From Sphaerisporangium rubeum (GTDB taxonomy: Bacteria; Actinomycetota; Actinomycetes; Streptosporangiales; Streptosporangiaceae), in the NCBI RefSeq assembly GCF_014207705.1, contig NZ_JACHIU010000001.1:6378501-6442500 (forward strand): DNA of 64,000 nt, written 5' to 3'. Positions 4,687-47,642 of this stretch are shown here, in pieces. The first letter of the stretch is position 1. Every line of letters begins with the position of its first letter. The notes beneath the pieces were generated by a model. That model was not told where the DNA came from. It did not search any database and saw nothing but the letters and a program-made list of their open reading frames with translations. The translations under genes were made by a program, and so were the position numbers.

Positions 4687-4908
4687 CGTCGTCGCCCATG
4701 CGGCTCATCCCTGTCACGTCGCCAAGTGTCGCGTCCTCCCGGCTGTGCGGGAGGCGGCAACCGCCCAGTCGTCACCGATCTGATAAGCGCCCTTATGCCT
4801 CCGGACGGTCGCGCGGTGAGATTCACCGTACGCATCGGAGGTCACGACGCAGCCACGTTCCGGGTTTGCTTTCCTATCGGTCGGAGTCAGCAACTCCTGT
4901 CAGGACGG

Positions 4909-5826: not shown

Positions 5827-5937
5827 CCCTAACCCTCCTCACCTCCGGTCACGGCGGGCCTGAGACTGGAAGAACCGTCCTCGGCGCAGGAACCTCCGCC
5901 GCTGGGGCAGCAGTACTGAGCACTGAGGAGGTCCCAC

Positions 5938-7086: not shown

Positions 7087-7149
7087 ACAGGGACGAGCCG
7101 ACGGCCGGTGGAAGGGATCGCACGACCGGGTCGTGAGCGGCGAACCGGC

Positions 7150-9411: not shown

Positions 9412-9540
9412 GCCTCTGCCTCCTCCCACTCGAAACCCGACTCCCCCGCCTCACACTAAACCACCACCCCGCGTAAATTCTTCTACATCGCGAGATGAAT
9501 CCACCGCCACCACATAGGGATTTCCTCCCCCTTCCGATGC

Positions 9541-9580
9541 CGCACCCGCCACCCCACATCACTGTGGCGCGGCGGGTGCG
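9541..9580 (-). terminator. GC-rich hairpin downstream of gatB
   Basis: A perfect 10-bp stem (CGCACCCGCC at 9541-9550 with GGCGGGTGCG at 9571-9580) encloses a second small stem CCACA-TCAC-TGTGG. It sits 38 nt after the gatB stop, with no T tract, as is common for actinobacterial terminators. It also lies in the upstream region of the VanW gene. Confidence 0.6.
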
Positions 9581-9617
9581 TGGCGGATGCGCGGCGGATG
9601 CGCGGTGGCGGACCGGG

Positions 9618-11126: not shown

Positions 11127-12613
11127 AGTGCCGGAGCCTCCTTCAGCAGCGGGCCGCCCCAGCGGTCCTGGAACGCCTTCTCGACGGCGGCGCCGACGCG
11201 GTAGCACCGGTCGTCCCCGAGGACCGGCGCCATGATCTGCAACCCGGCCGGCAGGCCGTCCTCGTCGGCCAGGCCGCAGGGAACCGAGATGGCGGCGTTT
11301 CCGGCGAGGTTGGCCGGGATGGTGCACAGGTCGGCGAGGTACATCGCCATGGGGTCGTCCGCGCGCTCCCCGATGGGGAACGCCGTGGTCGGCGTGGTCG
11401 GCGAGATCAGCACGTCCACCTGGTGGAACGCCGCCTCGAAGTCACGGGAGATCAGCGTGCGGACCTTCTGCGCCGAGCCGTAGTAGGCGTCGTAGTAACC
11501 GCTGGACAGCGCGTACGTGCCGAGCATGATGCGCCGCTTCACCTCGGCGCCGAAACCGGCGGCCCTGGTGAGCGCCATGACCTCCTCGGCGCTGCGGGTG
11601 CCGTCGTCGCCGACACGCAGGCCGTACCGCATGCCGTCGAACCTCGCGAGGTTCGACGAGCACTCCGACGGCGCGATCAGGTAGTAGGCCGGCAGCGCGT
11701 AGGTGAAGCTCGGGCAGGAGACCTCGGTGACCTTGGCGCCGAGGGACTCCAGCAGGTCCACCGCCTCCTGGAAGCGGGCCAGCACACCGGGCTGGTAGCC
11801 CTCGCCGGACAGCTCCCTGACCACGCCGACCCGCAGGCCCGCGACGTCGCCGTGCCTCGCGGCCTCGACCACCGGCGGCACCTCGGCGTGGATGGACGTG
11901 GAGTCCATCACGTCGTGGCCGGAGAACGCCTCGTGCAGCAGCGCCGCGTCGAGCACGGTGCGCGCGAACGGGCCGGGGGTGTCCAGCGAGGACGCGAAGG
12001 CGATCAGGCCGTACCGTGACGAACCGCCGTAGGTCGGCTTCATGCCGACGATGCCGGTGACCGCGGCCGGCTGGCGGATCGAGCCGCCGGTGTCGGTGCC
12101 GGTGGACAGCGGCGCCTGGTAGGACGCCACGGCCGCGCTGGAACCGCCGGACGAGCCGCCGGGGATGCGGCCGAGGTCCCACGGGTTGTGCGACGGGCCG
12201 TACGCGGAGTTCTCGGTGGAGGAGCCCATCGCGAACTCGTCGAGGTTGGTCTTGCCGAGGATCACCAGGCCCGCCTCGCGCAGACGGGCCGTCACCGTGG
12301 CGTCGTACGGCGGCCGGTAACCTTCGAGGATCTTGGAACCGGCCGTGGTCGGCATGTCCTTGGTGGTGAACACGTCCTTGTGCGCGATCGGCACCCCGGC
12401 CAGCGGCCCGAGCGCCTCCCCCGCGGCGCGGCGCGCGTCGACCGAGCGGGCCTGCTCCAGCGCCGCCTCGGCGGCGACGTGGAGGAACGCGCCGACCTTG
12501 CCGTCCACCTCGGCGATGCGGTCCAGGTGGGCCTGCGTGACCTCGACGGCCGACACCTCGCCGGCGGCCATCAGCTCGCCGAGCTCGGCGGCGGTCCTGC
12601 GGGTGAGGCTCAT
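11123..12613 (-). CDS. gatA: Asp-tRNA(Asn)/Glu-tRNA(Gln) amidotransferase subunit A
   Basis: Amidase-signature subunit that releases ammonia from glutamine for GatB. The Ser-cisSer-Lys triad is visible as the lysine in VPIAHKDVF, the cis-serine in GGSIRQPA and the nucleophile region [11 protein letters not shown] with TDTGGSI. At 496 residues it has the family length. The ATG overlaps the gatC stop as ATGA and the gene end overlaps the gatB start as GTGA, so all three subunits are translationally coupled, as expected for a 1:1:1 complex. Confidence 0.97.
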
Positions 12614-12909
12614 GCCTCCTCCCCGAGGATGCGCGGCACGCGGAACCGGTCGTCCTCGACCGCCGGGGCCATCGCCAGCGCCTCCTGCGGCGTCAGGCAG
12701 GGCCGCGCCTCGTCAGGCCGGTAGACGTTGGTGAGCGGCAGAGCGTGCGACGACGGCGGGATGTCACCGGAGGCCACCTCGGCGACACGCGCGACCGCGG
12801 CGATGATCTGGTCGAGCTGCGCGGCGTAGTGGTCGAGCTCGGCGTCGGCCAGCGCCAGCCGTGACAGGCGGGCGAGGTGAGCGACCTCGTCGCGGGTTAT
12901 GGCGGACAT
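12610..12909 (-). CDS. gatC: Asp-tRNA(Asn)/Glu-tRNA(Gln) amidotransferase subunit C
   Basis: Small 99-residue belt subunit that wraps GatA and GatB. It shows the family pattern [17 protein letters not shown] at the start, then [14 protein letters not shown], and the [21 protein letters not shown] stretch before a variable tail. First gene of the operon. The 111-nt gap from the GGDEF-EAL stop codon upstream should hold the promoter, but no clear -35/-10 is seen. Confidence 0.96.
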
Positions 12910-13020
12910 GAGTCGTCAACCCGTTTCATGGACGGCAATCGGACAGTGTCATCCTAGGGCTCGCCACCGGACGGGACCGAACCGTTAACCACCGCTTTCC
13001 CGGCCGTGACGACCCGGCGG

Positions 13021-15090
13021 CTAGGACGCGGTGACCTCAGCCGAACCGCACAGCGGCAGTGCGCCGCGCATGCGGCGGGCCTTGAGCCAGGTGGTGGTCT
13101 CCACGGCCGGCATCGCCTCGGCGAACCACCAGCCCTGGCCCGCGTCACACCCCATCTCGGTCAGAAGGATCGCGGCCTCCTCGGTCTCCACGCCTTCGGC
13201 GACCGAACGCAGGCCGAGCGAGCGCACGAGGTCCACGATGGAACGGACGATGCGCTCGTCGTCACCGGACTTGCCGATGCGCTGCACGAACGAGCCGTCG
13301 ATCTTGACCTCGGACACCGGCAGGCGCTGGAGGCGTACCAGCGAGCTGTAACCGGTGCCGAAGTCGTCCAGGGCCAGCGGCACGCCGAGCCGCACCAGAG
13401 CGCGCACCGAATCGGCGGTGTAGGCCTGGTCGGTCATCAAGATGCGCTCGGTGACCTCCAGCTGGACCGCGTCAGGAGGCAGGCTCAGGCGGACGAGACC
13501 GGCCTCCAGCAGGTCGGGAAGCGCGGGGTCCAGCAGGTCGCGGGCCGAGACGTTGACCGCGACGGGGACCTTGAGGCCCTGGTGCCACCACTCGGCGGCC
13601 TGTTCGAGCGCCATGTCGATCACGTGCTGGGTGAGCTCGCGCATGAGGTACGACTGCTCGGCCAGCGGGATGAAGTCGGCCGGGTACACCGGGCCGCGCA
13701 CCGGGTGCCACCAGCGCAGCAGCGCCTCGACACCCTCCACCACGCCGGTGGCGAGGCCCACCTTGGGCTGGTAGTGGAGCTGGAGCTCGTTGCCGCCGAT
13801 GGCTCTGCGCAGGTCGCCGAGCAGGTTGAGACGCTCAGGCGAGTTGCGGTCCTTCTCCGCGACGTACACCTCGACGCCGGTACGCGCCTCCTTGGCGAAG
13901 TACATGGCCACGTCGGAGCGTTGCAGCAGCAACTCGAAGTCCGGAGCGTGGTCGGGGTACAGCGCGATGCCGACGGAGGCGTCCAGGTCGAAGGTCAGGC
14001 CCTCGAGGCGCACCGGCTCGGTCAGCGCGACCCGCAGGCGTGCCGCGACCTCGCGCGCGGCGAACGCGTCGCGGACGGTCGGCAGCAGCACGGCGAACTC
14101 GTCGCCGCCGAGCCGCGCCACCACGTCGCCGGGCCGCACGCTGTGCGTGAGGCGGTGCGCGACGATCTGCAACAGCCGGTCCCCCACAGGGTGGCCGAGA
14201 GTGTCGTTGACCTCCTTGAACCGGTCGAGGTCGAGCAGCAGCAGGCCGACACGCTGCCGGTCGCGGGCCTCGGCCAGGGCCTCCTCGGTGCGCAGGATCA
14301 GCATCTTGCGGTTCGGCAGCGACGTCAGGCCGTCGTGCATGGCCTGGTGGTCGCGGCGGCGCGACAGGGACGCGGTGAAGTACATCGTCGCCAGCGGCGC
14401 CACGAACAGCGGCACCATGGCCGGGGAACGGCTCATCACGACGACGACCAGCGGCGCGAGGCCGAGCAGCGCGGCGTACATGGCGCTCTGGTGGCCGATC
14501 GTGGTCCGCAGCACGCGGCGCAGCGGACGGCGCTCATGCAGCGCGACGGCGCCGCAGACCAGCACGCAGCGCACCGCGAAGTACGCCACCGCCGCGAGCC
14601 CGACCGGCGCGATGTCCGCGCCGTCCGGCACCCACGGGGCCGCCGGGTGGGGATGGTGGCCGAACGCGCCGAGCACCACGGCCGCCGCCGTGGAGGCCAG
14701 AGCCACCTGGGAGACGTTGAACGCCACCCGGTGCCAGGCCCTGCGGTGCAGCAGTCCGCTCACCACGACCGCCAGCGTGTGGATCAGCAGGGCCACGGAG
14801 AGCCCGTGGTAGAGCAGGACCGCGAAGGTGAACAGCGTCGAGGTCGCCGTGCCTCCGGCCAGCCGGGAGTTGGAGACGATGATCGGCCGCAGCTCCCCCA
14901 GCACGACCAGGACGACCAGCATCCAAAACAGCGAGGACGTGCGCGCGAGCGCGGCGAACTCCTCGACGCCGAGCCGCATCTCGGCGACGACGAGCGCCGC
15001 GAGGCCCGCGGCGATGACCGCCACCAGGTACGTCCACAGCGGCGAGTAGCGCCTCGGCCCGAGGTCGCGCGTGTCGGATGGGTCCGTCAT
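13021..15090 (-). CDS. rmdB: Membrane GGDEF-EAL cyclic-di-GMP protein (RmdB-like)
   Basis: Second cyclic-di-GMP turnover protein in the window. Residues 1-245 hold about six to seven hydrophobic helices, followed directly, without a PAS domain, by a GGDEF domain (RLGGDEFAVL, with inhibitory RPGD five residues before it) and an EAL domain (VEALLRWWHP, NVSARDL, EVTERIL, DDFGTGYSSL, KIDGSFV). Both active sites look intact. Its place between ligA and gatC is the same as that of Streptomyces rmdB (SCO5495), which is needed for normal aerial development; the symbol rests on this synteny and architecture. ATG at 15090 is preferred over a TTG two codons upstream. Confidence 0.9.
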   Translation of the reverse strand: MTDPSDTRDLGPRRYSPLWTYLVAVIAAGLAALVVAEMRLGVEEFAALARTSSLFWMLVVLVVLGELRPIIVSNSRLAGGTATSTLFTFAVLLYHGLSVALLIHTLAVVVSGLLHRRAWHRVAFNVSQVALASTAAAVVLGAFGHHPHPAAPWVPDGADIAPVGLAAVAYFAVRCVLVCGAVALHERRPLRRVLRTTIGHQSAMYAALLGLAPLVVVVMSRSPAMVPLFVAPLATMYFTASLSRRRDHQAMHDGLTSLPNRKMLILRTEEALAEARDRQRVGLLLLDLDRFKEVNDTLGHPVGDRLLQIVAHRLTHSVRPGDVVARLGGDEFAVLLPTVRDAFAAREVAARLRVALTEPVRLEGLTFDLDASVGIALYPDHAPDFELLLQRSDVAMYFAKEARTGVEVYVAEKDRNSPERLNLLGDLRRAIGGNELQLHYQPKVGLATGVVEGVEALLRWWHPVRGPVYPADFIPLAEQSYLMRELTQHVIDMALEQAAEWWHQGLKVPVAVNVSARDLLDPALPDLLEAGLVRLSLPPDAVQLEVTERILMTDQAYTADSVRALVRLGVPLALDDFGTGYSSLVRLQRLPVSEVKIDGSFVQRIGKSGDDERIVRSIVDLVRSLGLRSVAEGVETEEAAILLTEMGCDAGQGWWFAEAMPAVETTTWLKARRMRGALPLCGSAEVTAS

Positions 15091-15726
15091 AGGCAACTAA
15101 ACCCCCAAGAGGTCACTATGGGAGGGTACGACCTCTGGGCCACTTCGCGAAACCGGTTGGGCACGTTCCGTCACCAGAAGTTTCCACGACTGATCACAAA
15201 CCCACCGACACCTTCCCGCGCCGTTCCTCTGGAACATCCCGTTAACCTGCGCGACGGCATACTTCCCACCGACCGCGAGCCGTGGACGTCGGCAGAAAGC
15301 CGGTCAAGGCCGCCGCACGCCAGATTGCCTCCGCCGAGGACCGTGCCGTCGTCGACGGGCTACCCCGCCGCGGGCATCGGAGGCGTCCGCGGTTGCCCCG
15401 TTCAACCCTCGCCTCCGCCGGCCGAGCCGCGCGACCACCCCGACACGATCGGCCAGTCCGTCAGCACCCGGCGCCTGGCCGGCGTGGACGACCCCTACTC
15501 CCTCGCACCCAGCGCCGAGGCCCACCCAGTGATCAGCGAGACGTCAGACCACGGCCACCCATCTACGAACGCCTCCGCCGCCGTCATCGTCGGCGACATC
15601 ATCTGGGCCCCGCCATCACCGGCGCCTTCCTCCTGACCACCCGAGGCGGCGACCACACCCTGCACCATGGAAACCACACGACACGGCTACACAACCCTGG
15701 CCCCCACCTCGCCGAGCCGGAAAACC
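15091..15726. other. Intergenic region upstream of the RmdB-like gene, no gene supported
   Basis: About 640 nt with no convincing coding frame on either strand: the open frames are Arg/Pro-rich GC artefacts and none has a good ribosome binding site. The 15.1-15.25 kb part has lower GC and probably carries the promoter of the minus-strand GGDEF-EAL gene. A short minus-strand frame near 15500-15600 reads like ordinary protein for about 30 residues (AEAFVDGWPWSDVSL), possibly a gene relic, but it cannot be extended. Confidence 0.5.
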
Positions 15727-15881
15727 CGCACCGCACCGCACCGCACGGCACCGCACCGCACCGCACCGCACGGCACCGCACGGCACGGCACCGCACCGCA
15801 CGGCACGGCACGGCACCGCACCGCACGGCACGGCACGGCACCGCACCGCACGGCACGGCACCGCACCGCACCGCGCGGCAC
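15727..15881. repeat. Pentanucleotide array (CGCAC/GGCAC) between ligA and the RmdB-like gene
   Basis: About 150 bp made of some 30 five-base units that alternate between GCACC and GCACG. Because the unit is not a multiple of three, all three frames on the minus strand are open and read as Cys/Arg/Ala/Val-rich repeats; these are not genes. It ends about 65 bp beyond the ligA stop codon. Slipped-strand expansion is the likely origin. Confidence 0.9.
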
Positions 15882-15945
15882 GGTCAGGCGAACCCGATCA
15901 CGGCCCTCACCCAGGACGGGCTCATCGGTGGGAGCCGTTGTACGG

Positions 15946-18507
<2,562 letters not shown>

Positions 18508-35340: not shown

Positions 35341-36564
35341 TCACCCCGCGAACGCCACCATGACCAGCACCACCAGCACCGTCGCCAAGGCGAGCACCAG
35401 CGTGAACGGGCTGAACAGAGTAGTCAGCAGCGCGTACAGACCGACCGTACCCGCGCCGCTGACCAGGTCGAACACGATCCGGGCCCGCGCGCGGGCCGCC
35501 AGGCCGAACGCCGCGTCGGTCAGCACCCCGAGGCCGTACGCCGCCAGCAGCAGCAGCGACAACTCCGGCACGTACGCCTCCGCCGCGGCCGCCGCGAGCC
35601 CCGCCACCACGCCGGTCGACACCATCCAGCGCCTGCGGACCTTCTCGCGGTGCCTGGCCCGCGCCTGTTCCAGCGACGTCCGTTCGTCCTGCCGCCGGTC
35701 CGGCCGCCATTCCATCGTCTGCGGCTCGTCGCCGCTCACCAGGCGCCGCCGCTCCACCGGAGCCGGCGGCGGCACGGCCGCGCCGAGCCGTTCGCACAGC
35801 GCCGGCGCGGTGGGACGGTCGGCGGGGACACGCTGGAGGCAGTCGCGCAGCACCGGCGCCAGCCAGGCAGGCACCTCGTCCAGGTCAGGCGGGTGGTGCA
35901 CCACGCGGTACGCCACCGCCGACGCCGGCCCGGTGCCGTACGGCTGCCGTCCCGAGGCCGCGTACGCGAGCGTGGCGCCGAACGAGAACACGTCGGCCTC
36001 CGGCCCCACCGCGCCGCCTTCCAGCACCTCAGGCGCCAGGTAGCCGGGGGTGCCGAGCACCGCACCCGAAGCGGTCACCGACGCCGAGTCCAGTGCGTAG
36101 GCGATGCCGAAGTCGATGACGTACGGCTCGCCGTCGGAGATGATGACGTTCGCCGGCTTGAGGTCGCGGTGCACCACCCCCGCGCCATGGACGACCGCCA
36201 GCGCCTCGGCCAGCCCCCTGGCCAGCCGCGTGAGGCCCTCCCCACGCAGCGGCTCACCACCCGCGAGCAGCGCCGCGAGCGAACGGCCCTGGACGTACCG
36301 CGTGACGACGTACGGCTGTTCACCGTCGAGCGAGGCGTCGAGGATCTCGGCGACGTGCGGCCCGCGTACCCGCCGCATCGTCTCGACCTCGCGGGCCAGC
36401 CGCGCCAGCGCCGTCTGGTCCGCCGCGACATGTGGATGCAGCACTTTCACCGCGACGGTGCGGCCCTCGGGGTCGAGCGCGAGATGGACCTCGCCGAAAC
36501 CACCCGCCCCGAGCCGGGAAAGCAGGCGGTAGGGCCCGAGGCGGTCCGCCGTTGGCACACCCAT
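35341..36564 (-). CDS. Ser/Thr protein kinase with C-terminal membrane helices (1)
   Basis: 407 residues. The Hanks-type kinase domain at 10-265 has the glycine loop LGAGGFGEVHLA, lysine in VAVKVLHPH, HRDLKPANV, DFGIAYALD and GTPGYLAPEVL, so it should be active. A linker at 270-320 contains EWRPDRRQ, then about four hydrophobic helices complete the protein, with no PASTA or other external sensor domain. Third of three tandem kinase genes on this strand, 66 nt after the second. The activation loop is threonine-poor (SVTASGAVLGT). Confidence 0.92.
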   Translation of the reverse strand: MGVPTADRLGPYRLLSRLGAGGFGEVHLALDPEGRTVAVKVLHPHVAADQTALARLAREVETMRRVRGPHVAEILDASLDGEQPYVVTRYVQGRSLAALLAGGEPLRGEGLTRLARGLAEALAVVHGAGVVHRDLKPANVIISDGEPYVIDFGIAYALDSASVTASGAVLGTPGYLAPEVLEGGAVGPEADVFSFGATLAYAASGRQPYGTGPASAVAYRVVHHPPDLDEVPAWLAPVLRDCLQRVPADRPTAPALCERLGAAVPPPAPVERRRLVSGDEPQTMEWRPDRRQDERTSLEQARARHREKVRRRWMVSTGVVAGLAAAAAEAYVPELSLLLLAAYGLGVLTDAAFGLAARARARIVFDLVSGAGTVGLYALLTTLFSPFTLVLALATVLVVLVMVAFAG

Positions 36565-36630
36565 GCCTCTCCTTCCGTCCCCTCACCTTTCCACGGTCAC
36601 GTGCGGGGAAACCGGAGGCCACGCGCGACG

Positions 36631-38598
36631 TCACCTGGTGAAGGGGAAGAACCCGAATCCGTTACGGCCGAGCAGATCCTGCAGCAGGCCTCCGATCACC
36701 CCCATGGCGCTGTCGCGGGCCGACTGGCCGAGCGCCGTGATGGCGTCCGACGGCGGACGCCACGGCACCCACGACGGCACGGTGTTGAGCGCGGTCGCCG
36801 CCGCGAGGAACGCCACCGTGCCGACGATGATCGTCACGACCATGCCGGCTCCGGGGCTGCGGATCGCCGCGGTGAGGGTGCGGGCCACCGCCTTGCGCGG
36901 CTTGCCGCCGCCTGGCAGCAGGAACAGGCCCGCGACGAACGCCGCGGCACCCCACGCGGCGGCCGAGTCCCCGCCGGACGACGTGTCGTTGAAGCCCGCC
37001 AGGTAGTACAGCGCTCCCCAGACGAGCACCCCGAACATCAAGGCGACCGTGCTCGCGAACAACGTGGCGAACGCCGCCTTGACCAGGGCCCACGGCGTGC
37101 CGAGCACCGCGAGCAGCGGGTCGCTCGGGCTGCTGCCCCTGATCGAGCGCCGCTGCGCGAGGTCGGCCCACAGGTACTCGCCGACCCGCAGGCACATCAC
37201 CACGACGACCATCAGGGTGCTGACCAGCACGGGGAGCATGCGGGCCCCCGCGACCACGGTCACGAGCAGCAACGCGGCGAGCAGCGGGTGCCCCGTGCGG
37301 TACGGCGGACGCTGCTCGCGCGGCTCAGGCGGCTGCGGACGCGGCTGGTGCGGCGGCGCGAGCGGCGCCGGCGGGCCGGACGGCGGAGGCGGCGGGTATC
37401 CGGCCACCCGCTGGTCGGGGTAGGGGGCCGGTGCGCCGTACCCCGGCGGCGGACCGTAGGGGGCCGGGGGGTAGGCGGGGGCCGGCGGCGGCGCGGTGGG
37501 GACACGGCCCGCCGGTCCCCGCTCGGGACGGGGACGGCGTGGCCGCTGCTCCGGCTCGGCGTACTGCACCGGAGGCAGCACGTCGGAGTAGCTGTCCTCG
37601 CTCACGGGCCTGGTGCGCCTGGTCGGCGCCGGCTCGTCCCCCGGGGACGCCGCGCCGTCCAGCACGCGGGTGCCGTCGGGAACGGAGCCGAGCCTGCGGG
37701 TGCCGTCGGGGACGGGGTCGCGGGTGTCGAGCCTGCGGGTGTGGCCCGGCTGGTCGGTGCGCGGCGGGGACTCCTGGAAGGCGGTGACGCTCGGGTCGAG
37801 CGCGCGTGACCGCCGTAGCAGGCCGTGCGCGTCGGGCCGTGAGGAGGCGTCCACCGCGAGCGCGGCGCGCAGCCACTGGCGCAGCCACACCGGGGCCCGC
37901 TCGATGTCGGCGCGGCCCTCCATGATGTTGTAGCAGACCGACTCGAACGACCCGGTGCCGAACGGCGGCCGGCCGGTCGCGCCGAAGAACACCGTGGCGG
38001 CCAAGGCGTGCACGTCCGCCGCCTGCGTGATCTCCTCGTCCCTGATGATCTCGGGGGCGAGGTAGCCGGGGGTGCCGACGAACATGCCGGTCTGGGTGAG
38101 CCTGGTCGCGTTGACCAGGTGCGCGATGCCGAAGTCGATGACCAGCGGGTCGCCGTCGACCACCATGACGTTGGCCGGCTTGAGGTCGCGGTGGATCACG
38201 TCGGCGTTGTGGATGGCGATCAGCGCCTCCGACAGGCCGCGGGCCAGCCGGATGACCTGCTGCGGCGCCAGCGGGCCGTCCGTGAGGACGATCTCCTCCA
38301 GGGTGCGGCCCGGCGCGAAGCGCGTGACGATGTACGGCTGACCGCCGGTGAGGCGCGCGTCGAGCACCTCGGCGACGCGGGGGCTGCGGACCCTGCGCAT
38401 GGTCTCGACCTCGCGGGTCAGCCGGTCACGCGCCTTGAGGTCGGCGGCCACGTGCGGGTGGAGCACCTTGACGGCGACCTGCCGGCCTTCCTCGTCGAGC
38501 GCGAGGTGCACGACCCCCATGCCTCCCTCGCCGAGGCGGCGCAACAGGCGATAGGGGCCGAGTCGTTCCATGGTGTCCGGCACGCGTTCCCCCGTCAT
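36631..38598 (-). CDS. Ser/Thr protein kinase with Pro-rich linker and membrane helices (2)
   Basis: About 655 residues. Kinase domain at 10-270 (LGEGGMGVVHLA, VAVKVLHPH, HRDLKPANVMV, DFGIAHLVN, RLTQTGMFVGTPGYLAPEII), then a long linker rich in Pro, Tyr, Gly and Asp with repeated DTRDPVPDGTRRL / SVPDGTRVLD-type segments, then about five hydrophobic helices. ATG 38598 overlaps the stop of the upstream kinase gene as ATGA. A longer open frame upstream is antisense-like and not used. Activity is likely; the signal is unknown. Confidence 0.92.
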   Translation of the reverse strand: MTGERVPDTMERLGPYRLLRRLGEGGMGVVHLALDEEGRQVAVKVLHPHVAADLKARDRLTREVETMRRVRSPRVAEVLDARLTGGQPYIVTRFAPGRTLEEIVLTDGPLAPQQVIRLARGLSEALIAIHNADVIHRDLKPANVMVVDGDPLVIDFGIAHLVNATRLTQTGMFVGTPGYLAPEIIRDEEITQAADVHALAATVFFGATGRPPFGTGSFESVCYNIMEGRADIERAPVWLRQWLRAALAVDASSRPDAHGLLRRSRALDPSVTAFQESPPRTDQPGHTRRLDTRDPVPDGTRRLGSVPDGTRVLDGAASPGDEPAPTRRTRPVSEDSYSDVLPPVQYAEPEQRPRRPRPERGPAGRVPTAPPPAPAYPPAPYGPPPGYGAPAPYPDQRVAGYPPPPPSGPPAPLAPPHQPRPQPPEPREQRPPYRTGHPLLAALLLVTVVAGARMLPVLVSTLMVVVVMCLRVGEYLWADLAQRRSIRGSSPSDPLLAVLGTPWALVKAAFATLFASTVALMFGVLVWGALYYLAGFNDTSSGGDSAAAWGAAAFVAGLFLLPGGGKPRKAVARTLTAAIRSPGAGMVVTIIVGTVAFLAAATALNTVPSWVPWRPPSDAITALGQSARDSAMGVIGGLLQDLLGRNGFGFFPFTR

Positions 38599-40820
38599 CC
38601 GGCCTTCTTCCGAAGGTTGTTCAGTTGCTGCAGCCAGTGGTCGATGTCCACCGGTGTCCAGATCGCGTCCCCCGTAGGCGTGATCAGGGTCATCACCGCG
38701 TACGCGGTGGCCGCCGCGGCGATCAGGCCGGTGATCGCGACGAGCCCGATGGCGGCCCCCTTGTCGGGGAACACCGCGGCGAGGCTCCTGCGCATCTGGC
38801 GGCCGGGCCCCTCGACACCGGGCCCCGCGCAGACGATCCACAACGCGACCGCGACACCCCAGCTCAGACAGGTGCCGACCGGCACGTGACGCACCAGGAA
38901 GGCGAGCACCAGCGTGACCGGCACGGCGAGGATGAGAGCGTACGGCACCAGCGCGATCGTGACGCCGATCGACTTGACCAGCGGACCCGGCGACAGGCCG
39001 CGCAGCAAGCCGGGACGGCCGTCGGAGGCGTACGCGATGTCCGCGCCGCGCAGCAGCACGGCGACCGGCAGGATCACCAGCGCGGCCACCACCGGCGCCA
39101 CGACCGCCGCGCCGACCACGATGAGCAGCGCGAGCAGTGCCGCCGCGGCGTACAGGGCCGAGGTCTCCGGCAGGCCGGCGCGGGCCGGTTCGCGGCCGGT
39201 GAGCGCGGCGGCCTGGTCGGGAGGCAGGTGCACGGTCGGCGAGTGGCCCTGGCTCCGCGGGATGCCGGGGTGGCGGATGTGGGGGGTGCGCTCGAACACC
39301 TCCGACGGCTGCTCGAACAGCGCCTGGTGGTAGGCGCCGGGAGGCTGGCCGCCTTGTCCGTACGGCGAGGCCTGCCGGCCGTGCGGGACGTGCTGCGCGT
39401 TCTGGCCCGGCTGGACGGGGTGGCCGTACTGTCCGGGATGCGCGTTCTGGCCGGGGTGTGCGTTCTGACCCGGGAAGGCGCCGGGGTGTGCGTTCTGGCC
39501 GGGCTGGCCGGAGCGGTGCGCGTCGCGATCGAGGGTGCCGAGTTCCTCGGGCCGGACGCGGCGGGTCGGCACCTCACCCTGGTCGGGAGCGGGCTTGGGG
39601 GCTCCCTGCCAGGAGGAGCCGGTGGCGGGTGGCGCGAACCGTGTCGGCACCTCGCCTTCCGGCGTGCGGGCCTGCTCACGGGGGTTCGCGCCGGTTCCCG
39701 GCAGACCGGCCTGGCGCAGTTCCTCGCCGGTCACCCGCACGGTCGGCCAGGGGTCACCGGGGCCGGGACCCTGCGGCGCCTCGCTGAGCAGCGACACGTA
39801 CTCGTCGGCCCCGGCGGCGGGCCCCGCGACCGGGACGCCGGCGCCGGGGGTGCCGGCGGGCTGACCGGTACGGCCGGGGGCCGTCGGGCCCTGCTGCGGG
39901 CTGGAGGACGGGCCGGTGGCGGGGGCCTTGCGTGCCGGGTTGGTGGCCTCAGGCGCCTTACCCGAAAGGCCCGACATGTCTGGCATGGTGCGTATGTCGT
40001 CAGGGATGCGCGCGCGGCCCGGCCCCGTCGGAGGCATGAGCTGGGTCAGCCGCGCGGCCAGCTCGGCGGCGCTCGGCCGCTTGGCCGGATCGCGCTGGAA
40101 GGCGCCACGCAGCAGCGGCCGCAGGATCTCCGGAGCCGCGTCGATGTTCGCACGGCCCGCGGTGATGTTGTAGAACACCATCTCCAGCGTGCCCTTGCCG
40201 AACGGCGGCTGGCCGGTCGCGGCGTACAGCAGAGTGCCGGCCCACGCGTGCACGTCGACCTCGGGCCCCGCCTCGTGGCCCTCGATGATCTCAGGCGCGA
40301 GGTAGCCGGGGGTGCCGATGAACATGCCGGTCTGCGTGAGCCGCGTGGCGTCCACCGCCTGCGCGATGCCGAAGTCGATCAGCACGGGCTCGCCGTCCAG
40401 CAGCAGGACGTTACCCGGCTTGAGGTCGCGGTGGATCACCCCGGCGGCGTGCACCGCGGCGAGCGCGTCCGCGACGCCGTGCGCGAGCCGCAGCAACGCG
40501 TCGACCGGGAGCGGGCCGTCCTGTTTGACCGCCTCGTCGAGCGGCTTGCCGGGGACGTAACGGGTGACGATGTAGGGGCGGCTGCCGGTGACGTCGGCGT
40601 CCAGCACCTCGGCGATGTACTTGTTGCGTACCCGCCGCATCGTCTCGACCTCACGGGACAGCCGTCTGCGCGCGACGTCGTCCCCCGCGACCTCCGCGCG
40701 CAGCACCTTGACGGCGACCTGCCTGCCGTGAGAGTCCAGGGCGAGGTGCACCACGCCCATGCCACCAGCACCGAGCCGCCGGAGCAGCCGGTAGGGGCCC
40801 AAACGGTCGTCCTGATTCAT
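38595..40820 (-). CDS. Ser/Thr protein kinase with Gln/His/Pro repeat linker and membrane helices (3)
   Basis: 741 residues, first of the three-gene kinase operon. The kinase domain (LGAGGMGVVHLA, VAVKVLRAEV, HRDLKPGNVLL, DFGIAQAVD, GTPGYLAPEII) is followed by about 200 residues of Pro/Gly-rich linker including GQNAHPG-type repeats near residues 445-480, then five or six hydrophobic helices. Kinases 2 and 3 share the RLTQTGMFxGTPGYLAPEII activation loop exactly, which indicates tandem duplication. It is translationally coupled to kinase 2 through ATGA. Confidence 0.92.
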   Translation of the reverse strand: MNQDDRLGPYRLLRRLGAGGMGVVHLALDSHGRQVAVKVLRAEVAGDDVARRRLSREVETMRRVRNKYIAEVLDADVTGSRPYIVTRYVPGKPLDEAVKQDGPLPVDALLRLAHGVADALAAVHAAGVIHRDLKPGNVLLLDGEPVLIDFGIAQAVDATRLTQTGMFIGTPGYLAPEIIEGHEAGPEVDVHAWAGTLLYAATGQPPFGKGTLEMVFYNITAGRANIDAAPEILRPLLRGAFQRDPAKRPSAAELAARLTQLMPPTGPGRARIPDDIRTMPDMSGLSGKAPEATNPARKAPATGPSSSPQQGPTAPGRTGQPAGTPGAGVPVAGPAAGADEYVSLLSEAPQGPGPGDPWPTVRVTGEELRQAGLPGTGANPREQARTPEGEVPTRFAPPATGSSWQGAPKPAPDQGEVPTRRVRPEELGTLDRDAHRSGQPGQNAHPGAFPGQNAHPGQNAHPGQYGHPVQPGQNAQHVPHGRQASPYGQGGQPPGAYHQALFEQPSEVFERTPHIRHPGIPRSQGHSPTVHLPPDQAAALTGREPARAGLPETSALYAAAALLALLIVVGAAVVAPVVAALVILPVAVLLRGADIAYASDGRPGLLRGLSPGPLVKSIGVTIALVPYALILAVPVTLVLAFLVRHVPVGTCLSWGVAVALWIVCAGPGVEGPGRQMRRSLAAVFPDKGAAIGLVAITGLIAAAATAYAVMTLITPTGDAIWTPVDIDHWLQQLNNLRKKAG

Positions 40821-41262: not shown

Positions 41263-41787
41263 TCACTGGGCCAGGGAGAGCACTTCCGCCGATTTCAGCC
41301 GCGCCAGGGCCTCTCCCGCGAGAGCCAGCTTGGAACCCCTGATGCCGCTGCCGATCACCACCTCGGGACGCTCGGCGACCCGCGTGTCCACCAGCACCGG
41401 CCAGTCGTCCGGCAGGCCGATCGGGGTGATGCCGCCGTACTCCATGCCGGACCGCGTCACCGCGTCGTCCTGCGCGGCGAAGGACGTCTTGCGCGCGTCC
41501 AGGTGGCGGCGGATCACGCCGTTGACGTCGGCCCGCGTCGTGGCGAGCACCATCACGGCGGCGTACCGCGTCTCGCCTCCCCGCCTGGCGGTGACGATCA
41601 CGCAGTTGGCGGAGTCCGCCGGCGCCACGCCGTACCGCTCGCAGAACACCGCCGTGTCGGCCAGGCCGGCGTCGATCGGCGCGACCCGAACGGCGTCGGT
41701 CATGCAGGCGAGCGCCTGCGCCACCGGGTCGGCCAGCAGGTCGCGGCGGTCCAGCGCGGGTACCCAGTCGAGCGTGCCGAGGCCCAC
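41263..41787 (-). CDS. YbaK/ProX-type aminoacyl-tRNA deacylase domain protein
   Basis: 174 residues of the YbaK/EbsC editing fold, which hydrolyses mischarged tRNAs such as Cys-tRNA(Pro) or Ala-tRNA(Pro). Visible family features are ANCVIVTA, the lysine in DARKTSFAAQDDAVTRSGMEYGGITPIGLP and the final GSGIRGSKLALAGEAL. GTG 41787 has AGGAGGG 8 nt upstream and starts only 3 nt after the amine oxidase stop, so it is the last gene of a four-gene operon. A general tRNA-editing role is possible, but its coupling to peptidase, oxidase and PP-loop genes suggests it may act on an unusual aminoacyl or thioester intermediate; that is inference. Confidence 0.82.
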   Translation of the reverse strand: MGLGTLDWVPALDRRDLLADPVAQALACMTDAVRVAPIDAGLADTAVFCERYGVAPADSANCVIVTARRGGETRYAAVMVLATTRADVNGVIRRHLDARKTSFAAQDDAVTRSGMEYGGITPIGLPDDWPVLVDTRVAERPEVVIGSGIRGSKLALAGEALARLKSAEVLSLAQ

Positions 41788-41790
41788 GGG

Positions 41791-43428
41791 TCATCCCTCC
41801 TTCAGAACACGGTGGTGCAGATCGGTGACCACCTTACGTGCCGACTCCAGCGCACCGGCCTGCCAGGCGATGAGGTGCGTCAGCCAGTCCCCCGCGAAGT
41901 ACACCCGGCCGGCCGGCCGCTGGAGCAGGGACAGGCCGCTCGTGGACGGCCAGCGCACCCATGCGCCTTCGATGTGCGGCTGCCTGCGCCACGAGATCGT
42001 CACCGCGTCCAGCACGTCCTTGCGGTACTTGGCGCCGTGCACGCGCGCACCGTGGCCGAGCGCACGGCGCACCCGGTCGCGGTGCGGCATCGCGTCGTAG
42101 GCCTCGGCGTGCGGCCCGGTGTTGTAGTAGCCGACGACCAGGCCGCGCTCGGTGTGGTAGTCGTGCGAGGGGTACCAGATGTGGCCGATCTCCAGGTCGG
42201 TCTCGGTGGCGCCGCCGTACACGCGGTCCTCCAGCTCCCACCAGCGGCGGCCGTACTCCAGGCCGAGCTTGCCGGCCGCCATGGGGATCGGGGTCGCCAG
42301 CGCGGAATGGACGTCGGCGCCGAGGTTGGTGCGCACACGGGTCAGGACGTGCGGAGGCAGCGCGGCCACGCAGTAGTCGGCGGTCAGGACGGCGCCGCCG
42401 TCGAGCTCGACCTCCACCCCGCTCGGACGGTTGGTGATCCTGGTGACGCGTGTGCCGGTCCTGATGCGCTCCGCGCCGACCCGGCCGGCCAGCGCGCGCA
42501 CGATGGCGTCCATGCCGCCGATCGGCTGGAACATCGGCATGGCCTGCTCGTAGCCGGCGTCCATGGTCAGCATGCGGCCGAGGCCCTGGCTGAGGACCTC
42601 GGCCAGCTCAGGCGGACGGCCGAGCGCCGACCCCGCCGTGACGCCGGGGTCCACGCGGTAGCCGCGGCGCTCCCCGCCGGTGTAGGTGTGCGCCGGGCCG
42701 ATCTCCCCGAAGTGGGACAGGAAGTCGAGCAGCAGCTCCTGGTCGGCCTTGGTCAGCCTGGCGTCGAGAGCCCCGGCGTCGGTGGCCTTGGCGAGTAACT
42801 CGGAGATGTAGCCGTAGGCGTCGGCGCGCGCGGTGCGCATGCGGACCGGGGCCCGCATGCCGGAGGTGAGGACGTACGCGCTGGAGTTGCTGTTGACGAA
42901 CACCTCAAGGGGGACGCCGAGCTCGCGGCAGTAGTCGAGGGTGACCATCCACTGAGCGATGCGAGCGGGACCGGCGTTGAAGTAGGTGCCGGGGCCGAAG
43001 CGGACCTGCCGCCGTTCCGGGGAGTCCGCGGTGCCGGGGCTCGCGGAACCGTTCCACGAGACCGGAAGCTCGGTGACTGTGTCGCCACCGCGCAGTGTAA
43101 GGCTGCGGCCCCCTATGCGATCACGTGCCTCAAGCACCGTGCAGTCGTACCCGGCCTTGCCGAGTTCGTACGCGCACGCCAGCCCCGCCACGCCGGCGCC
43201 GAGCACCAGCACCTTGGCGGGACGGCCACCGCGCAGCGTGAAGTCCGACCGGCCAGGCGGGACGTACGGCGCGGGACCCGCCGCGCCGCCGGTGCGCGGC
43301 AGCGGGTCGGCGGCAGGGGACGGGGCCAGTCCGAGCACACCCATGGCGGCGTACATGGCACCCGCGCCGCCGGCCGCGCCGATGCCGACGAGCAGTGAGC
43401 GACGGGTGAGCTTGGCGGGGTCAGGCAC
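41791..43428 (-). CDS. Flavin monoamine oxidase with twin-arginine signal
   Basis: About 545 residues. The N-terminus has a Tat-type signal (KLTRRSLLVGIGAAGGAGAM), so the folded flavoprotein should be exported. An FAD-binding motif follows (VLVLGAGVAGLACAYELGKAGYDCTVLEARDRIGGRS), and the C-terminus keeps the second flavin-contact region GRVYFAGDWLTHLIAWQAGALESARK. It probably oxidises an amine or L-/D-amino-acid-like substrate, releasing aldehyde, ammonia and peroxide. GTG 43428 starts 5 nt after the M55 peptidase gene stop. The large upstream open frame is a shadow of that gene. Confidence 0.85.
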   Translation of the reverse strand: MPDPAKLTRRSLLVGIGAAGGAGAMYAAMGVLGLAPSPAADPLPRTGGAAGPAPYVPPGRSDFTLRGGRPAKVLVLGAGVAGLACAYELGKAGYDCTVLEARDRIGGRSLTLRGGDTVTELPVSWNGSASPGTADSPERRQVRFGPGTYFNAGPARIAQWMVTLDYCRELGVPLEVFVNSNSSAYVLTSGMRAPVRMRTARADAYGYISELLAKATDAGALDARLTKADQELLLDFLSHFGEIGPAHTYTGGERRGYRVDPGVTAGSALGRPPELAEVLSQGLGRMLTMDAGYEQAMPMFQPIGGMDAIVRALAGRVGAERIRTGTRVTRITNRPSGVEVELDGGAVLTADYCVAALPPHVLTRVRTNLGADVHSALATPIPMAAGKLGLEYGRRWWELEDRVYGGATETDLEIGHIWYPSHDYHTERGLVVGYYNTGPHAEAYDAMPHRDRVRRALGHGARVHGAKYRKDVLDAVTISWRRQPHIEGAWVRWPSTSGLSLLQRPAGRVYFAGDWLTHLIAWQAGALESARKVVTDLHHRVLKEG

Positions 43429-43433
43429 GGGGG

Positions 43434-44276
43434 TCAGCCGTAGATGCCGCTGTCGCAGGCCACCCGGCCGGCGATCATCGCGTAGACACCGAGCAGCGCC
43501 ATGATGTCCCTGAAGTCCTCCGAGGTGAACTCGATGTGCCGGGGACCGGCCGGGCGCGTGCCGGGGATCAGCGAGCAGCCCGCCGCGATGGCCGTCGAGT
43601 TCCACTCCACCCCGAGCGTGAACGGCGGCGGCACGACGTACGGCCGGAAGTCGCTCAGCCGGTTCAGCGCACGCGCCGCGGCCTCCCTGATGAGCGCGTG
43701 CGCGACGGCCGGCGGCAGCAACTGCGCCGCGAACCGGTCGATGCCCTTCTTCACCGGCACCGTCTCGACCTCGCCGAGCACCTCGCGGGCCTCCGCGCAC
43801 GCCGCCTCGTCCCCGGTGACCAGCGCCACCGGTACGCCGAGGAACCCGGCGAACCCGGCGACCAGCCGGATCTCACCGCAGATCTCACCGTTGAGGTACA
43901 CGTTCTGGATCTCGTGACCCATCCACGTGTGGTTGAGCACGCCGTGCCGGGTGCCGGCGCGCGCGTGGTAGCCGGCGAAGCAGGCCGCGTCGAAGCCGGC
44001 CGTCAGGCCCTCGGCCATGCGCATCGGCTTGCCGGGGCCGCGGATCAGCGACGCGCGGGGGTCGAGCTGGTCGATGCGGAGATTCTTGGTGGAGCCGTGC
44101 GCGTCGTTGACGACCACGTCGGTCGCGCCGGCCTCGTACACCCCCGCGACGACGGCGTTGGCGTCGGCGGTCATCAGCTCGCAGCCACGCTCGTAGCCCC
44201 GGCCGCCGGCGTGCATCTCCTCAGGGTCGGTGAGGCCGGTCACGCCTTCCATGTCCACCGACACGTACACCTTCAT
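43434..44276 (-). CDS. D-aminopeptidase, M55 (DppA) family
   Basis: 280 residues. Metal ligands line up exactly with Bacillus DppA: Asp8 and Glu10 in SVDMEGVTG, His60 in NDAHGS, His104 in GYHARAG, with a glutamate near 131-135 and a catalytic-type histidine in NHTWMGHE. DppA cuts D-Ala-containing peptides, so a D-amino-acid peptide or related amide is the likely substrate. ATG 44276 overlaps the stop of the PP-loop gene by one base (TGATG). No transporter (dppBCDE) accompanies it, unlike in Bacillus. Confidence 0.88.
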   Translation of the reverse strand: MKVYVSVDMEGVTGLTDPEEMHAGGRGYERGCELMTADANAVVAGVYEAGATDVVVNDAHGSTKNLRIDQLDPRASLIRGPGKPMRMAEGLTAGFDAACFAGYHARAGTRHGVLNHTWMGHEIQNVYLNGEICGEIRLVAGFAGFLGVPVALVTGDEAACAEAREVLGEVETVPVKKGIDRFAAQLLPPAVAHALIREAAARALNRLSDFRPYVVPPPFTLGVEWNSTAIAAGCSLIPGTRPAGPRHIEFTSEDFRDIMALLGVYAMIAGRVACDSGIYG

Positions 44277-45505
44277 CACAGCCCCCAGCTCTCCACCCGG
44301 AGACGGTCGGCCGCGTCCATGAAGCCGAACCGGTCCGCCATGATCGGCTCGATCTCCTTGCGCCACTTCTCGGGGATCTCCTCGACGGCGGGAGGGTAGC
44401 ACCGCTCCAGCCACCGCGTGGACTCGACGGTGGCCTTCAGATGCCGCGCGGCCGTGGCGAACGGTGTCGTCTCGATGTCCGGCACGTGCGCGCAGCCGTA
44501 CTCGATCATCTCCTGGCCGCCGTACGGCGGGGGCTGCTGCCACTTGCGCGCCACCGGCCGGTCGGCCGTGATCTCGGTGCGCATCGGCCGCCGCTCGACG
44601 GCGGCCTGGATGAGCTCCTTGTACAGGCACTTGCCGCACCGGCCGCACGGCCCGCTGCCGTCGCCGCGCAGGCACCAGCGCACCTGGTCCCTCAGTTCCG
44701 ACTCCAGCGCGATCCGCATGGTCATCGCCTCGCTGATGCCCCCGACCGGCAGCACCAGCGGCAGCCCCACGGCCGCGAACGCTCTCCCCCACCTGCCGTG
44801 CGCCGACCACATGGGGTTGTCCGGCGTGTACCGGTGGACGTACCGGCCCCCGCCGAGCCAGCGCGAGCCGATCTCGTACCCGAGCGCCACCCCGCCGAGG
44901 TCCGCCTCGCCGGCCGTCAGCAGCGCACCGGCCAGCACCGCGTGGTGCTCGGGGTAACCGGGCCGGGGCTTGCGGAGCATGAACTCGAGATCGGACCGGA
45001 CGACCGTGACCTCACGACCGGTCCCACGCGCCAACTTCGCCAGCACGTCGGAGCGGTAGTGCGTCCACCGGTTCGGCACCCGCGGATGCGGCACCCGCTG
45101 GAAGTGGACGAGCGGCGCCTCCGGCAGCAGCGCCGCCACCGCCACCGAATCGGCCCCGCCGCTGTAGGAGATCGCCAGCCGCTCCCCGGCCTCCCGCGCC
45201 GCACCCCCCACGGGACCCGCGTCGACCCCCCAGCCGTCGTGCAACGCGCCGGCCAGCGCGGCCGAGACGGGCCGGTCGAAGACCACTCTCCCCCGGGCCC
45301 ACGGCGCCGCCACCGTCCAGGCCGCCAGTGCGAGCAGATCAGGATGCGGCTCGCCGTGCTCCCCCTCCGGAAGCCGCACATGGCAGGTGTCGGTGGCCAG
45401 TTCCACCGCCTGCCCGTCCGTCACGACCCCCGCGACCCCTTCACCGGCGTCCAGCCGCAACCGCAGCCGCCACTCGGCCCCGTCCCGCGTCCACGCCAGC
45501 CTCAT
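44276..45505 (-). CDS. QueC-like PP-loop ATP pyrophosphatase
   Basis: 409 residues. After an N-terminal region of about 105 residues comes the PP-loop SYSGGADSVAVAALLP (SGGADS at 115-120). Near residues 285-300 there is a four-cysteine set spaced C-x8-C-x2-C-x2-C (ending CGRCGKCLYKELI), the same spacing as the zinc site of QueC, which turns a carboxylate into amide and nitrile using ATP and ammonia. The rest of the protein is longer than QueC (about 230 residues) and has its own N- and C-terminal parts, so it is a distinct family; DUF6395-like is a guess. First gene of the four-gene operon. An ATP-dependent amidation, nitrile or thiolation step is inferred. Confidence 0.75.
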   Translation of the reverse strand: MRLAWTRDGAEWRLRLRLDAGEGVAGVVTDGQAVELATDTCHVRLPEGEHGEPHPDLLALAAWTVAAPWARGRVVFDRPVSAALAGALHDGWGVDAGPVGGAAREAGERLAISYSGGADSVAVAALLPEAPLVHFQRVPHPRVPNRWTHYRSDVLAKLARGTGREVTVVRSDLEFMLRKPRPGYPEHHAVLAGALLTAGEADLGGVALGYEIGSRWLGGGRYVHRYTPDNPMWSAHGRWGRAFAAVGLPLVLPVGGISEAMTMRIALESELRDQVRWCLRGDGSGPCGRCGKCLYKELIQAAVERRPMRTEITADRPVARKWQQPPPYGGQEMIEYGCAHVPDIETTPFATAARHLKATVESTRWLERCYPPAVEEIPEKWRKEIEPIMADRFGFMDAADRLRVESWGL

Positions 45506-45602: not shown

Positions 45603-45974
45603 TCATGAGGATGCCGCCGGTGAGCTCCGCCCCGCCTCGCCGTCCTCGCGCAGCCCGTCCACGGCCTGCCAGAGCAGGACCTCGGCCTGCAGCAGATGGT
45701 CGACGGCCGACGAGGCCTCCGTCGCCAGCCGGTGAGCGTCCTCGACCTTCGCCTTCAGACCGCCGTCACCAGAAGGAGCCCTCCCCTGCTTGCGCAGCAG
45801 CTCCACCTCGCGCCGCAGCTCGGTGACCTCACGCCGGAGCGCCTGCACCTCCCACAACGAGTCCTTGACATCCTGTCGATGCTCGGCTCGCGTGACGTAC
45901 CGTCCGTCCAGCCGCACCAGCACAGCCCGCAACACCCGCCGAGGCACCAAAGCCCGCCACACAACCCGCGCCAT
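45603..45974 (-). CDS. Small coiled-coil protein of unknown function
   Basis: 123 residues. A basic N-terminus (MARVVWRALVPRRVLRAVLVRLDGRYV) is followed by a coiled coil at about 38-65 (WEVQALRREVTELRREVELLRKQ) and a second helical stretch that may dimerise. It has no catalytic motif. It lies 97 nt upstream of the PP-loop operon on the same strand and may be transcribed with it. Function not recognised; a scaffold or membrane-proximal adaptor is possible. Confidence 0.65.
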   Translation of the reverse strand: MARVVWRALVPRRVLRAVLVRLDGRYVTRAEHRQDVKDSLWEVQALRREVTELRREVELLRKQGRAPSGDGGLKAKVEDAHRLATEASSAVDHLLQAEVLLWQAVDGLREDGEAGRSSPAASS

Positions 45975-46664: not shown

Positions 46665-47642
46665 ATGACACAACACGACCCCGACCCGCAGCACAGCGGC
46701 CACGGTCACGGCCCCCAGCACGACCACGGACGCACGGCGCCACACGAGGCCGGTCACGGACCGCAGCAGGGCCACGGCCACGGTCACGGCCATGGCCACG
46801 GTCATCAGCACGGCACGGCCGGCCCCGGCGGCGCCGAACTGGCCGAGGTCCTGGATCTCGACGCCGAGGTCCTGCACTCGCTGTTGTCCGAGGCGGTCGG
46901 CCACGTCCACACCCTCACCGCCGACGCGCCGGTCCGCCACATCCTCGACCTGGGCAGCGGAACCGGCACCGGCACACTGGCCCTTCTCGGCCGCTTCCCC
47001 GGCGCGGAGGCCACCGCCGTGGACGGCTCCCCCGAAATGCTGAGCCGCCTGGAGTCGAAGGCCCACACCGCCGGCCTGGCCGCCAGGCTCCGCACCATCG
47101 AAGCCGACCTCGACACGACGTGGCCCGCCGTGGCCACCCCCGACCTCGTCTGGGCCTCGGCGTCCCTCCACCACATGGCCGACCCCGCGCACACCCTCAC
47201 CCGGATCCTCACCACCCTGCGTCCCGGCGGCCTCCTCGCGGTCCTCGAACTGGACTCCTTCCCCACCTTCCTCCCTCACGACCTCGGCATCGGCACCCCC
47301 GGCCTGGAAGCCCGCTGCCAGGCCCTCGTCACCACCGGCAACGTCGCCACGATGCCGACGTTCGGCGCCGACTGGGCCCCGCTCCTCCGCAAGGCCGGCT
47401 TCACCGTGGAACTCACCCGCCACCTCACCACCACGATCCCGGCCCCCATCTCCCCCTCGGCCCGCCGCTACGCCGAACTCACCCTGACCCGCGTCCGCGA
47501 CCGCCTGGCCGACCAGCTCGACCCCGAGGACCGGAAAACCCTCGACACCCTCCTCGACAACACCTCACCGTCAGGCCTCATCCACCGCGACGACCTCACC
47601 GTCCAGGCCTCGAGGTCCCTCTGGGTGGCCCGCCGGCCCTGA
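46665..47642 (+). CDS. Class I SAM-dependent methyltransferase with His-rich N-terminus
   Basis: 325 residues. Residues 1-50 are very His/Gly rich (QHSGHGHGPQHDHG, then HGHGHGHGHGHQHG), a likely Zn/Ni/Cu-binding segment. The Rossmann methyltransferase core follows at about 80-235, with motif I ILDLGSGTGTGTLALL, motif II ATAVDGSPEMLSRL and the post-motif WASASLHHMADP. Substrate unknown. It has no good ribosome binding site, and the ATG may be near the transcript start. Divergent from the XRE-cupin regulator and convergent with cutA 5 nt away. Confidence 0.85.
   Translation: MTQHDPDPQHSGHGHGPQHDHGRTAPHEAGHGPQQGHGHGHGHGHGHQHGTAGPGGAELAEVLDLDAEVLHSLLSEAVGHVHTLTADAPVRHILDLGSGTGTGTLALLGRFPGAEATAVDGSPEMLSRLESKAHTAGLAARLRTIEADLDTTWPAVATPDLVWASASLHHMADPAHTLTRILTTLRPGGLLAVLELDSFPTFLPHDLGIGTPGLEARCQALVTTGNVATMPTFGADWAPLLRKAGFTVELTRHLTTTIPAPISPSARRYAELTLTRVRDRLADQLDPEDRKTLDTLLDNTSPSGLIHRDDLTVQASRSLWVARRP

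Follow-up and report, generated by a model that had tools for sequence, protein, structure and literature searches.

Three described systems lie closest to the locus reported here. QueC (PF06508; 2pg3, 3bl5) is the 7-cyano-7-deazaguanine synthase and carries the motifs YxQxHxxE and VPxRN (PMC13329287). QatC belongs to the anti-phage system qatABCD (9y01, 9y02) and is partnered by QatB, a helical protein, and the protein modified by Cap9 is its partner (PMC13279940). WbpG, from a subcluster of N-sugar amidotransferases, is a QueC-superfamily member with a role in O-antigen (PMC13329287). We analysed a 64,000-nucleotide stretch of the Sphaerisporangium rubeum genome (NZ_JACHIU010000001.1, positions 6,378,501 to 6,442,500; hereafter the window), which encodes a PP-loop protein (PP) of the Pfam family DUF6395 (PF19932), a small coiled-coil protein (CC), a DppA-like M55 D-aminopeptidase, an L-amino acid oxidase (LAAO) and a YbaK-fold protein. 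CC and PP most likely form a core composed of a QueC-superfamily ligase and its partner; a single pathway uniting the four enzymes is unlikely.

All genes of the block lie on the minus strand. That for PP (409 aa, QueC/QatC-like fold; 44276..45505) is followed by those for the M55 protein (280 aa; 43434..44276), LAAO (545 aa, with a twin-arginine leader and a GTG start; 41791..43428) and the YbaK-fold protein (174 aa, GTG start; 41263..41787), the Pfam names of the four being DUF6395, Peptidase_M55, Amino_oxidase and tRNA_edit. PP and DppA overlap by 1 nt in TGATG, and gaps of 5 nt (DppA–LAAO) and 3 nt (LAAO–YbaK) follow. A sequence-only reading of this stretch had described this packing, and its coordinates, overlap and gaps were all confirmed. 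It had also suggested that a small gene 97 nt upstream of PP may belong to the unit. This gene, which encodes CC (123 aa, coiled coil read from sequence; 45603..45974), is indeed a member: 77 of the 78 loci carry it on the upstream side of PP. The anatomy of the locus is real and partly unexplained.

PP scores 230 bits against DUF6395 (cut-off 25). This is its sole family match, to which Pfam assigns no function; PP does not fall in a family of known unrelated function. The loop SGGADS occupies residues 115–120, and S115, G117, D119 and S120 are present in 78/78 loci and G116 in 76/78; the first two loop places deviate in 3 of 15 diverse DUF6395 members. Four cysteines of zinc type, as judged by sequence (C278-x8-C287-x2-C290-x2-C293), are kept in all 78 loci and all 15 diverse members. 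The earlier claim that they have exactly the QueC spacing is too strict: the C-x8-C-x2-C-x2-C set is present, but among 26 QueC proteins the first gap is x7 in 19, x8 in 3, x9 in 3 and x11 in 1. Within DUF6395 it is x8 in 35 and x7 in 31 of 66 rows, a total in which 7 rows of A1 and A2 are counted twice.

The likeness of PP to QueC was upheld by structural match and alignment. QatC is its best structural match, the alignment spanning the N-terminal region. PF06508 had no match at E≤0.01 in the 15 DUF6395 members, and the QatC model of PADLOC matched neither PP nor these 15. Nor were YxQxHxxE and VPxRN at their expected places in PP in an hhalign alignment; PP has VPNR at 143–146, about 25 residues past the loop, compared with about 85 in QueC, and its TPDN aligns with QueC YPDC. 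PP appears to be a relative of QueC and QatC about which little is known. We found no paper on DUF6395 under either name, nor any on the operon or on QueC with polysaccharide, and the main text of a 2026 survey of the QueC family, searched for DUF and PF19932, does not mention the family.

These features bear on the possibility that QueC has been replaced by PP, as a diverged enzyme of the 7-deazapurine type. The S. rubeum genome has one PTPS (QueD-like) gene and no full-length QueC, its two PF06508 matches being partial (positions 4–61 and 5–61) and located in proteins whose sequences suggest asparagine synthetase; together with the alignment of TPDN to YPDC, this would suit such a replacement. 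The absence of the QueC motifs from their expected places argues against it. So does the lack of any queD or queE noticed on reading the frames around the locus, a reading made with no family search of the neighbours, and so do the two QueE matches in the genome, which are partial and score 30 and 21 bits where the cut-off is 206, although the single model used is a weak test, with just one of 14 control genomes scoring above that threshold. We consider replacement of QueC very improbable. Elsewhere (L126; G000:C1:5917000-5936800, ~4478-9293), a gene of PTPS (QueD-like) type has genes reading as GTP cyclohydrolase II and a glycosyltransferase nearby; QueE was not noticed beside it.

We next compared gene order among relatives. 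The 78 PP loci come from one scan of genome contigs with PP as the single query, which retrieves close relatives only; their narrow range, comprising Streptosporangiaceae genera and three metagenome-assembled genomes (one placed no closer than Actinobacteria), is partly due to this method. The nearest relatives of PP are from Sphaerisporangium (76–83% identity). CC, PP, DppA, LAAO, YbaK and a downstream kinase gene occur together, in identical order and strand, in 60/78 loci, a count that scores loci cut by contig ends as misses, and co-occurrence of the six genes beyond chance was confirmed. With start codons chosen by script, the CC–PP gap has a median of −4 nt and is ≤30 nt in 74/77 loci, some CC ends being uncertain since the alignment ran beyond the stop codon in 5 CC matches. 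The medians for PP–DppA, DppA–LAAO and LAAO–YbaK are −4 nt (within 30 nt in 52/69), 30 nt (33/65) and 55 nt (27/64, of which those at L036 and L047 are artefactual because YbaK is matched incompletely there). The steadiest pair is PP and its upstream CC.

The kinase gene (38595..40820, minus strand) reads as a Ser/Thr protein kinase, a name taken from the sequence with no family search. It is a conserved neighbour outside the tight block: it is present at 74/78 loci, and its gap to YbaK has a median of 131 nt and is never ≤30 nt or ≤100 nt (0/69 for each). Persistence by descent therefore matters and, because the PP tree broadly follows genera, gene order could persist by descent alone.

The sequence-only reading had proposed that the four enzymes serve a single pathway. 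In such a pathway, PP would activate a carboxylate derived from an amino acid, DppA would shorten peptides with D-residues, LAAO would carry out an oxidation outside the membrane and YbaK would remove an ester. The tight spacing in the window, the 60 loci with all genes and the short PP–DppA gaps are consistent with this proposal, whereas the looser DppA–LAAO and LAAO–YbaK gaps are not, and the three enzymes drop out separately while PP stays. DppA is lost with the other genes kept in seven loci (L015, L030, L031, L034, L037, L045 and L051, the last also without YbaK), LAAO in three (L049, L057, L082) and YbaK in four more (L043, L053, L055, L056); YbaK is matched only partly in L036 and L047. 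None of the seven genomes without DppA at the locus has a close copy elsewhere, these being draft genomes in which an assembly gap is possible. Four of them have a DppA relative of 41–42% identity and three have none, with an additional split partial match in the L015 genome (49% over 86 residues); the relatives found in comparison genomes L011, L006 and L040 are at 74–85% identity. L011 is probably not a DppA loss: a 2103-aa open frame (10236-16547) follows PP where DppA is expected, and the genome carries DppA (85% identity) at a different place, probably within that contig.

The converse arrangement also occurs. In L140 (genome G428; 348-653), PP is missing between a short CC and DppA, and DppA, LAAO, YbaK and the kinase are retained; four other sampled genomes of this genus likewise lack DUF6395. 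Moreover, LAAO matches (E≤1e-80) occur in 30/296 genomes of the class, and 21 of these 30 loci, one of which (L151) sits at a contig end, lack both DppA and YbaK over a distance of 1.5 kb, 20 of the 21 being from other families. The 9 LAAO loci with DppA are all in the window's family. Because of these separate losses and unaccompanied oxidases, the four enzymes are not an obligate set and their coupling is a trait of one family. The separability of the peptide and amino-acid enzymes, along with a YbaK that lacks its catalytic lysine, makes a single pathway unlikely, at a low probability, and cautions that tight packing of four enzymes does not necessarily denote one pathway. Outside the operon, LAAO adjoins a gene for a secreted-looking protein of 214–249 aa with a GTPERYxD motif in L137, L147 and L148, and in L144 the LAAO neighbour has a similar start.

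The M55 protein resembles Bacillus subtilis DppA (1hi9, E 2.3e-52; PF04951, E 5.5e-96), whose metal and nucleophile positions it keeps. Asp8, Glu10, His60 and His104, singled out by the sequence-only reading, are kept in 69/69 copies, as are H116 and E135, which we take to be the positions numbered H115 and E133 in M55 enzymes. Its score against the NCBIfam DppA model is 222.8 bits, below the cut-off of 430, and so its substrate may differ from that of DppA.

LAAO is akin to the Rhodococcus opacus enzyme (2jae, E 1.1e-125), from which it differs in its conserved twin-arginine leader and its place in this operon. R156 is present in 72/72 copies, and Y435, W490 and W522 in 71/72, the remaining copy not being covered; presumably the Arg and Tyr bind the substrate carboxylate and the two Trp form the cage, as we take these residues to do in R. 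opacus LAAO. The Tat signal noted earlier is recovered by a permissive pattern in 72/72 copies, and R9–R10 in all 41 copies covered by the alignment, 31 not being covered there; the oxidase is probably exported. LAAO as an ammonia source for PP was dropped as a candidate because an exported oxidase would be on the wrong side of the membrane.

The YbaK-fold protein (PF04073, E 2.5e-20) has Asn61 at the place of the catalytic lysine (K46) in alignments to 1dbu, 2dxa and 1wdv. Asn61 recurs in 67/67 readable of 69 copies, within the motif SANCV, and the protein scores 42.7 bits against TIGR00011 (cut-off 153.25). The lysine is catalytic and conserved among trans-editing domains, according to PMC9425024. 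Because Asn replaces it, deacylase activity is doubtful, as is the earlier suggestion that this protein hydrolyses aminoacyl esters; YbaK-fold proteins of SANCV type possibly form a separate subfamily.

The pairing of PP with CC raises the question of protein modification in the manner of Cap9 and QatC, whereby PP would ligate a small molecule to the CC N terminus, perhaps as an immune or signalling switch. This would accord with QatC being the best structural match of PP, including across its N-terminal region, and with the partners that QatC and Cap9 have. Both known partners require an N-terminal glycine motif, whereas Gly stands at CC residue 2 in 0/74 copies (the window and 73 loci, starts script-chosen). 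The lack of a PADLOC QatC match and a PP tree that runs broadly along genera, unlike that of a mobile defence system, also argue against such a role, as do, not decisively, the absence of full-length QueC and the partial QueE matches in the genome. Modification of CC in this way is unlikely. Outside the operon, L098 has a CC homologue (E 7e-10) that shares its strand with a divergent DUF6395 gene and overlaps the 5' end of that gene, another lies in L096 (9662-10036; E 5.8e-19), and none was found at E≤0.01 in the remaining loci read.

DUF6395 is rare, occurring in 2/396 genomes sampled phylum-wide (one of them that of the window), in 54/150 genomes of the family and in 12/296 genomes of the class of G331, 10 of them above cut-off. 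Plasmid records yielded relatives in 2 of 72,556, one being an 11.85-Mb Nonomuraea record (NZ_LT559118.1) catalogued among plasmids, and viral contigs yielded one stretch encoding a relative. Nine loci outside the operon were read, L115, L117 and the short L101–L111 being left out. Six have glycosyltransferase genes near DUF6395, called by Pfam in L096, L097, L098, L112 and L116 and by annotation in the Priestia plasmid L094. L096 has four DUF6395 matches, three read as full frames, and its neighbours are glycosyltransferases, a methyltransferase domain and what reads as an export ATPase. In L097 and L098, DUF6395 lies within a run reading as threonine genes. One glycosyltransferase family is common to L096, L097, L098 and L112 and a second to L096, L097 and L098, at 29–61% identity. 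L113 and L114 (clade f91, another class) have DUF6395 among genes reading as xanthine dehydrogenase and hydantoinase.

These glycosyltransferases, and the service of WbpG to O-antigen, would also fit PP as an N-sugar amidotransferase of the WbpG kind, installing an ammonia-derived amide or amidine on a surface-glycan sugar. The cysteine pattern reported for WbpG in PMC13329287 (CxxC-x6-CxC) differs from that of DUF6395 (C-x7/8-C-x2-C-x2-C), and a glutaminase partner was not noticed in the loci read, none having been searched for. We regard this alternative as rather unlikely.

We tentatively propose, with somewhat less than even confidence, that CC and PP constitute the functional core, PP being a ligase that acts on a surface-glycan precursor and the other enzymes separable add-ons. 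The fold class, the motifs, the adjacency of CC and PP and the separability of the other enzymes are direct observations. ATP would bind at the SGGxDS loop and a carboxylate would be activated as an adenylate, which would then pass to a nitrogen nucleophile in an amide-type ligation. PP would combine its zinc-type four-cysteine site with an N-terminal domain whose invariant HPD motif may lie at the active site. CC would be a dedicated partner in contact with PP, serving as a scaffold or membrane tether, and the substrate would most likely be a precursor of a cell-surface glycan. Within Streptosporangiaceae, CC and PP would have come to be co-transcribed with the M55, exported LAAO and YbaK-fold genes, which may act in amino-acid or peptide turnover apart from the core, the deacylase chemistry of the YbaK fold probably having been lost.

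Several observations weigh against this proposal. The glycan role, the best-supported function, rests on neighbours elsewhere and not on this locus. DUF6395 is merely a fragment in L112 and L116, and L099, L113 and L114 have no glycosyltransferase genes, as judged by eye. The CC homologue of L096 is flanked by two DUF6395 copies and faces the other way, so it is not an upstream operon partner. The threonine operon of the window's own genome has homologous glycosyltransferases without DUF6395: at L121 (G000:C1:1954000-1973900, ~7866-11746), two such genes lie between hom- and thrC-like genes (names from sequence), a place that additionally holds DUF6395 in L097 and L098. The QueC–ThiI and QueC–MnmA control comparisons and the weakness of the QueE test count on the same side.

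A phylogenetic profile of the threonine-operon glycosyltransferase (51/54 DUF6395-positive versus 9/96 negative genomes, at a cut of E 1e-160 picked after a gap in the values was visible) was set aside because its pattern tracks clades and so is not evidence. The glycosyltransferase is retained without DUF6395 in the five g269 genomes of the sample and in four of the five from g264; conversely, DUF6395 is retained without this orthologue in three genomes of g259.

CC might instead be the carrier or acceptor, onto which PP would load the activated acid and which would hold it at the membrane for modification of surface glycan or wall, LAAO and the D-aminopeptidase remodelling or recycling the amino-acid decoration. 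We find this highly doubtful; if true, it would add a new use of the QueC fold to nucleobase synthesis and immune protein tagging.

Two further features of the window lie beyond the block. Downstream, three minus-strand genes in a row (35341-40820) read as Ser/Thr protein kinases, and at 46665-47642 a long His/Gly repeat (HGHGHGHG) opens a protein whose sequence suggests a methyltransferase.

Set beside the described systems, the favoured CC–PP core differs from each. QueC, of about 220 aa, has the SGGxDS loop and the same type of cysteine set as PP, which at 409 aa has additional N- and C-terminal parts, lacks the QueC motifs at their expected places and has no Pfam QueC match. QatC has the cysteine pattern C-x19-CGxCxxRR, as given in PMC13329287, compared with x7 or x8 in all 66 DUF6395 rows; its operon has qatA and qatD where this one has M55, LAAO and YbaK-fold genes, and its partner QatB bears an N-terminal glycine motif, whereas CC, a short coiled coil, has Gly2 in 0/74 copies. 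The WbpG subcluster, as described in PMC13329287, is akin to PP as a set of QueC-superfamily PP-loop proteins of 300–400 aa in glycan gene clusters, and PP is set apart from it by that description, through the cysteines. With DUF6395 placed in the vicinity of QueC and QatC, its conserved partner and its glycan-gene surroundings at other loci provide a direct means of asking whether the fold serves in cell-surface decoration as well.
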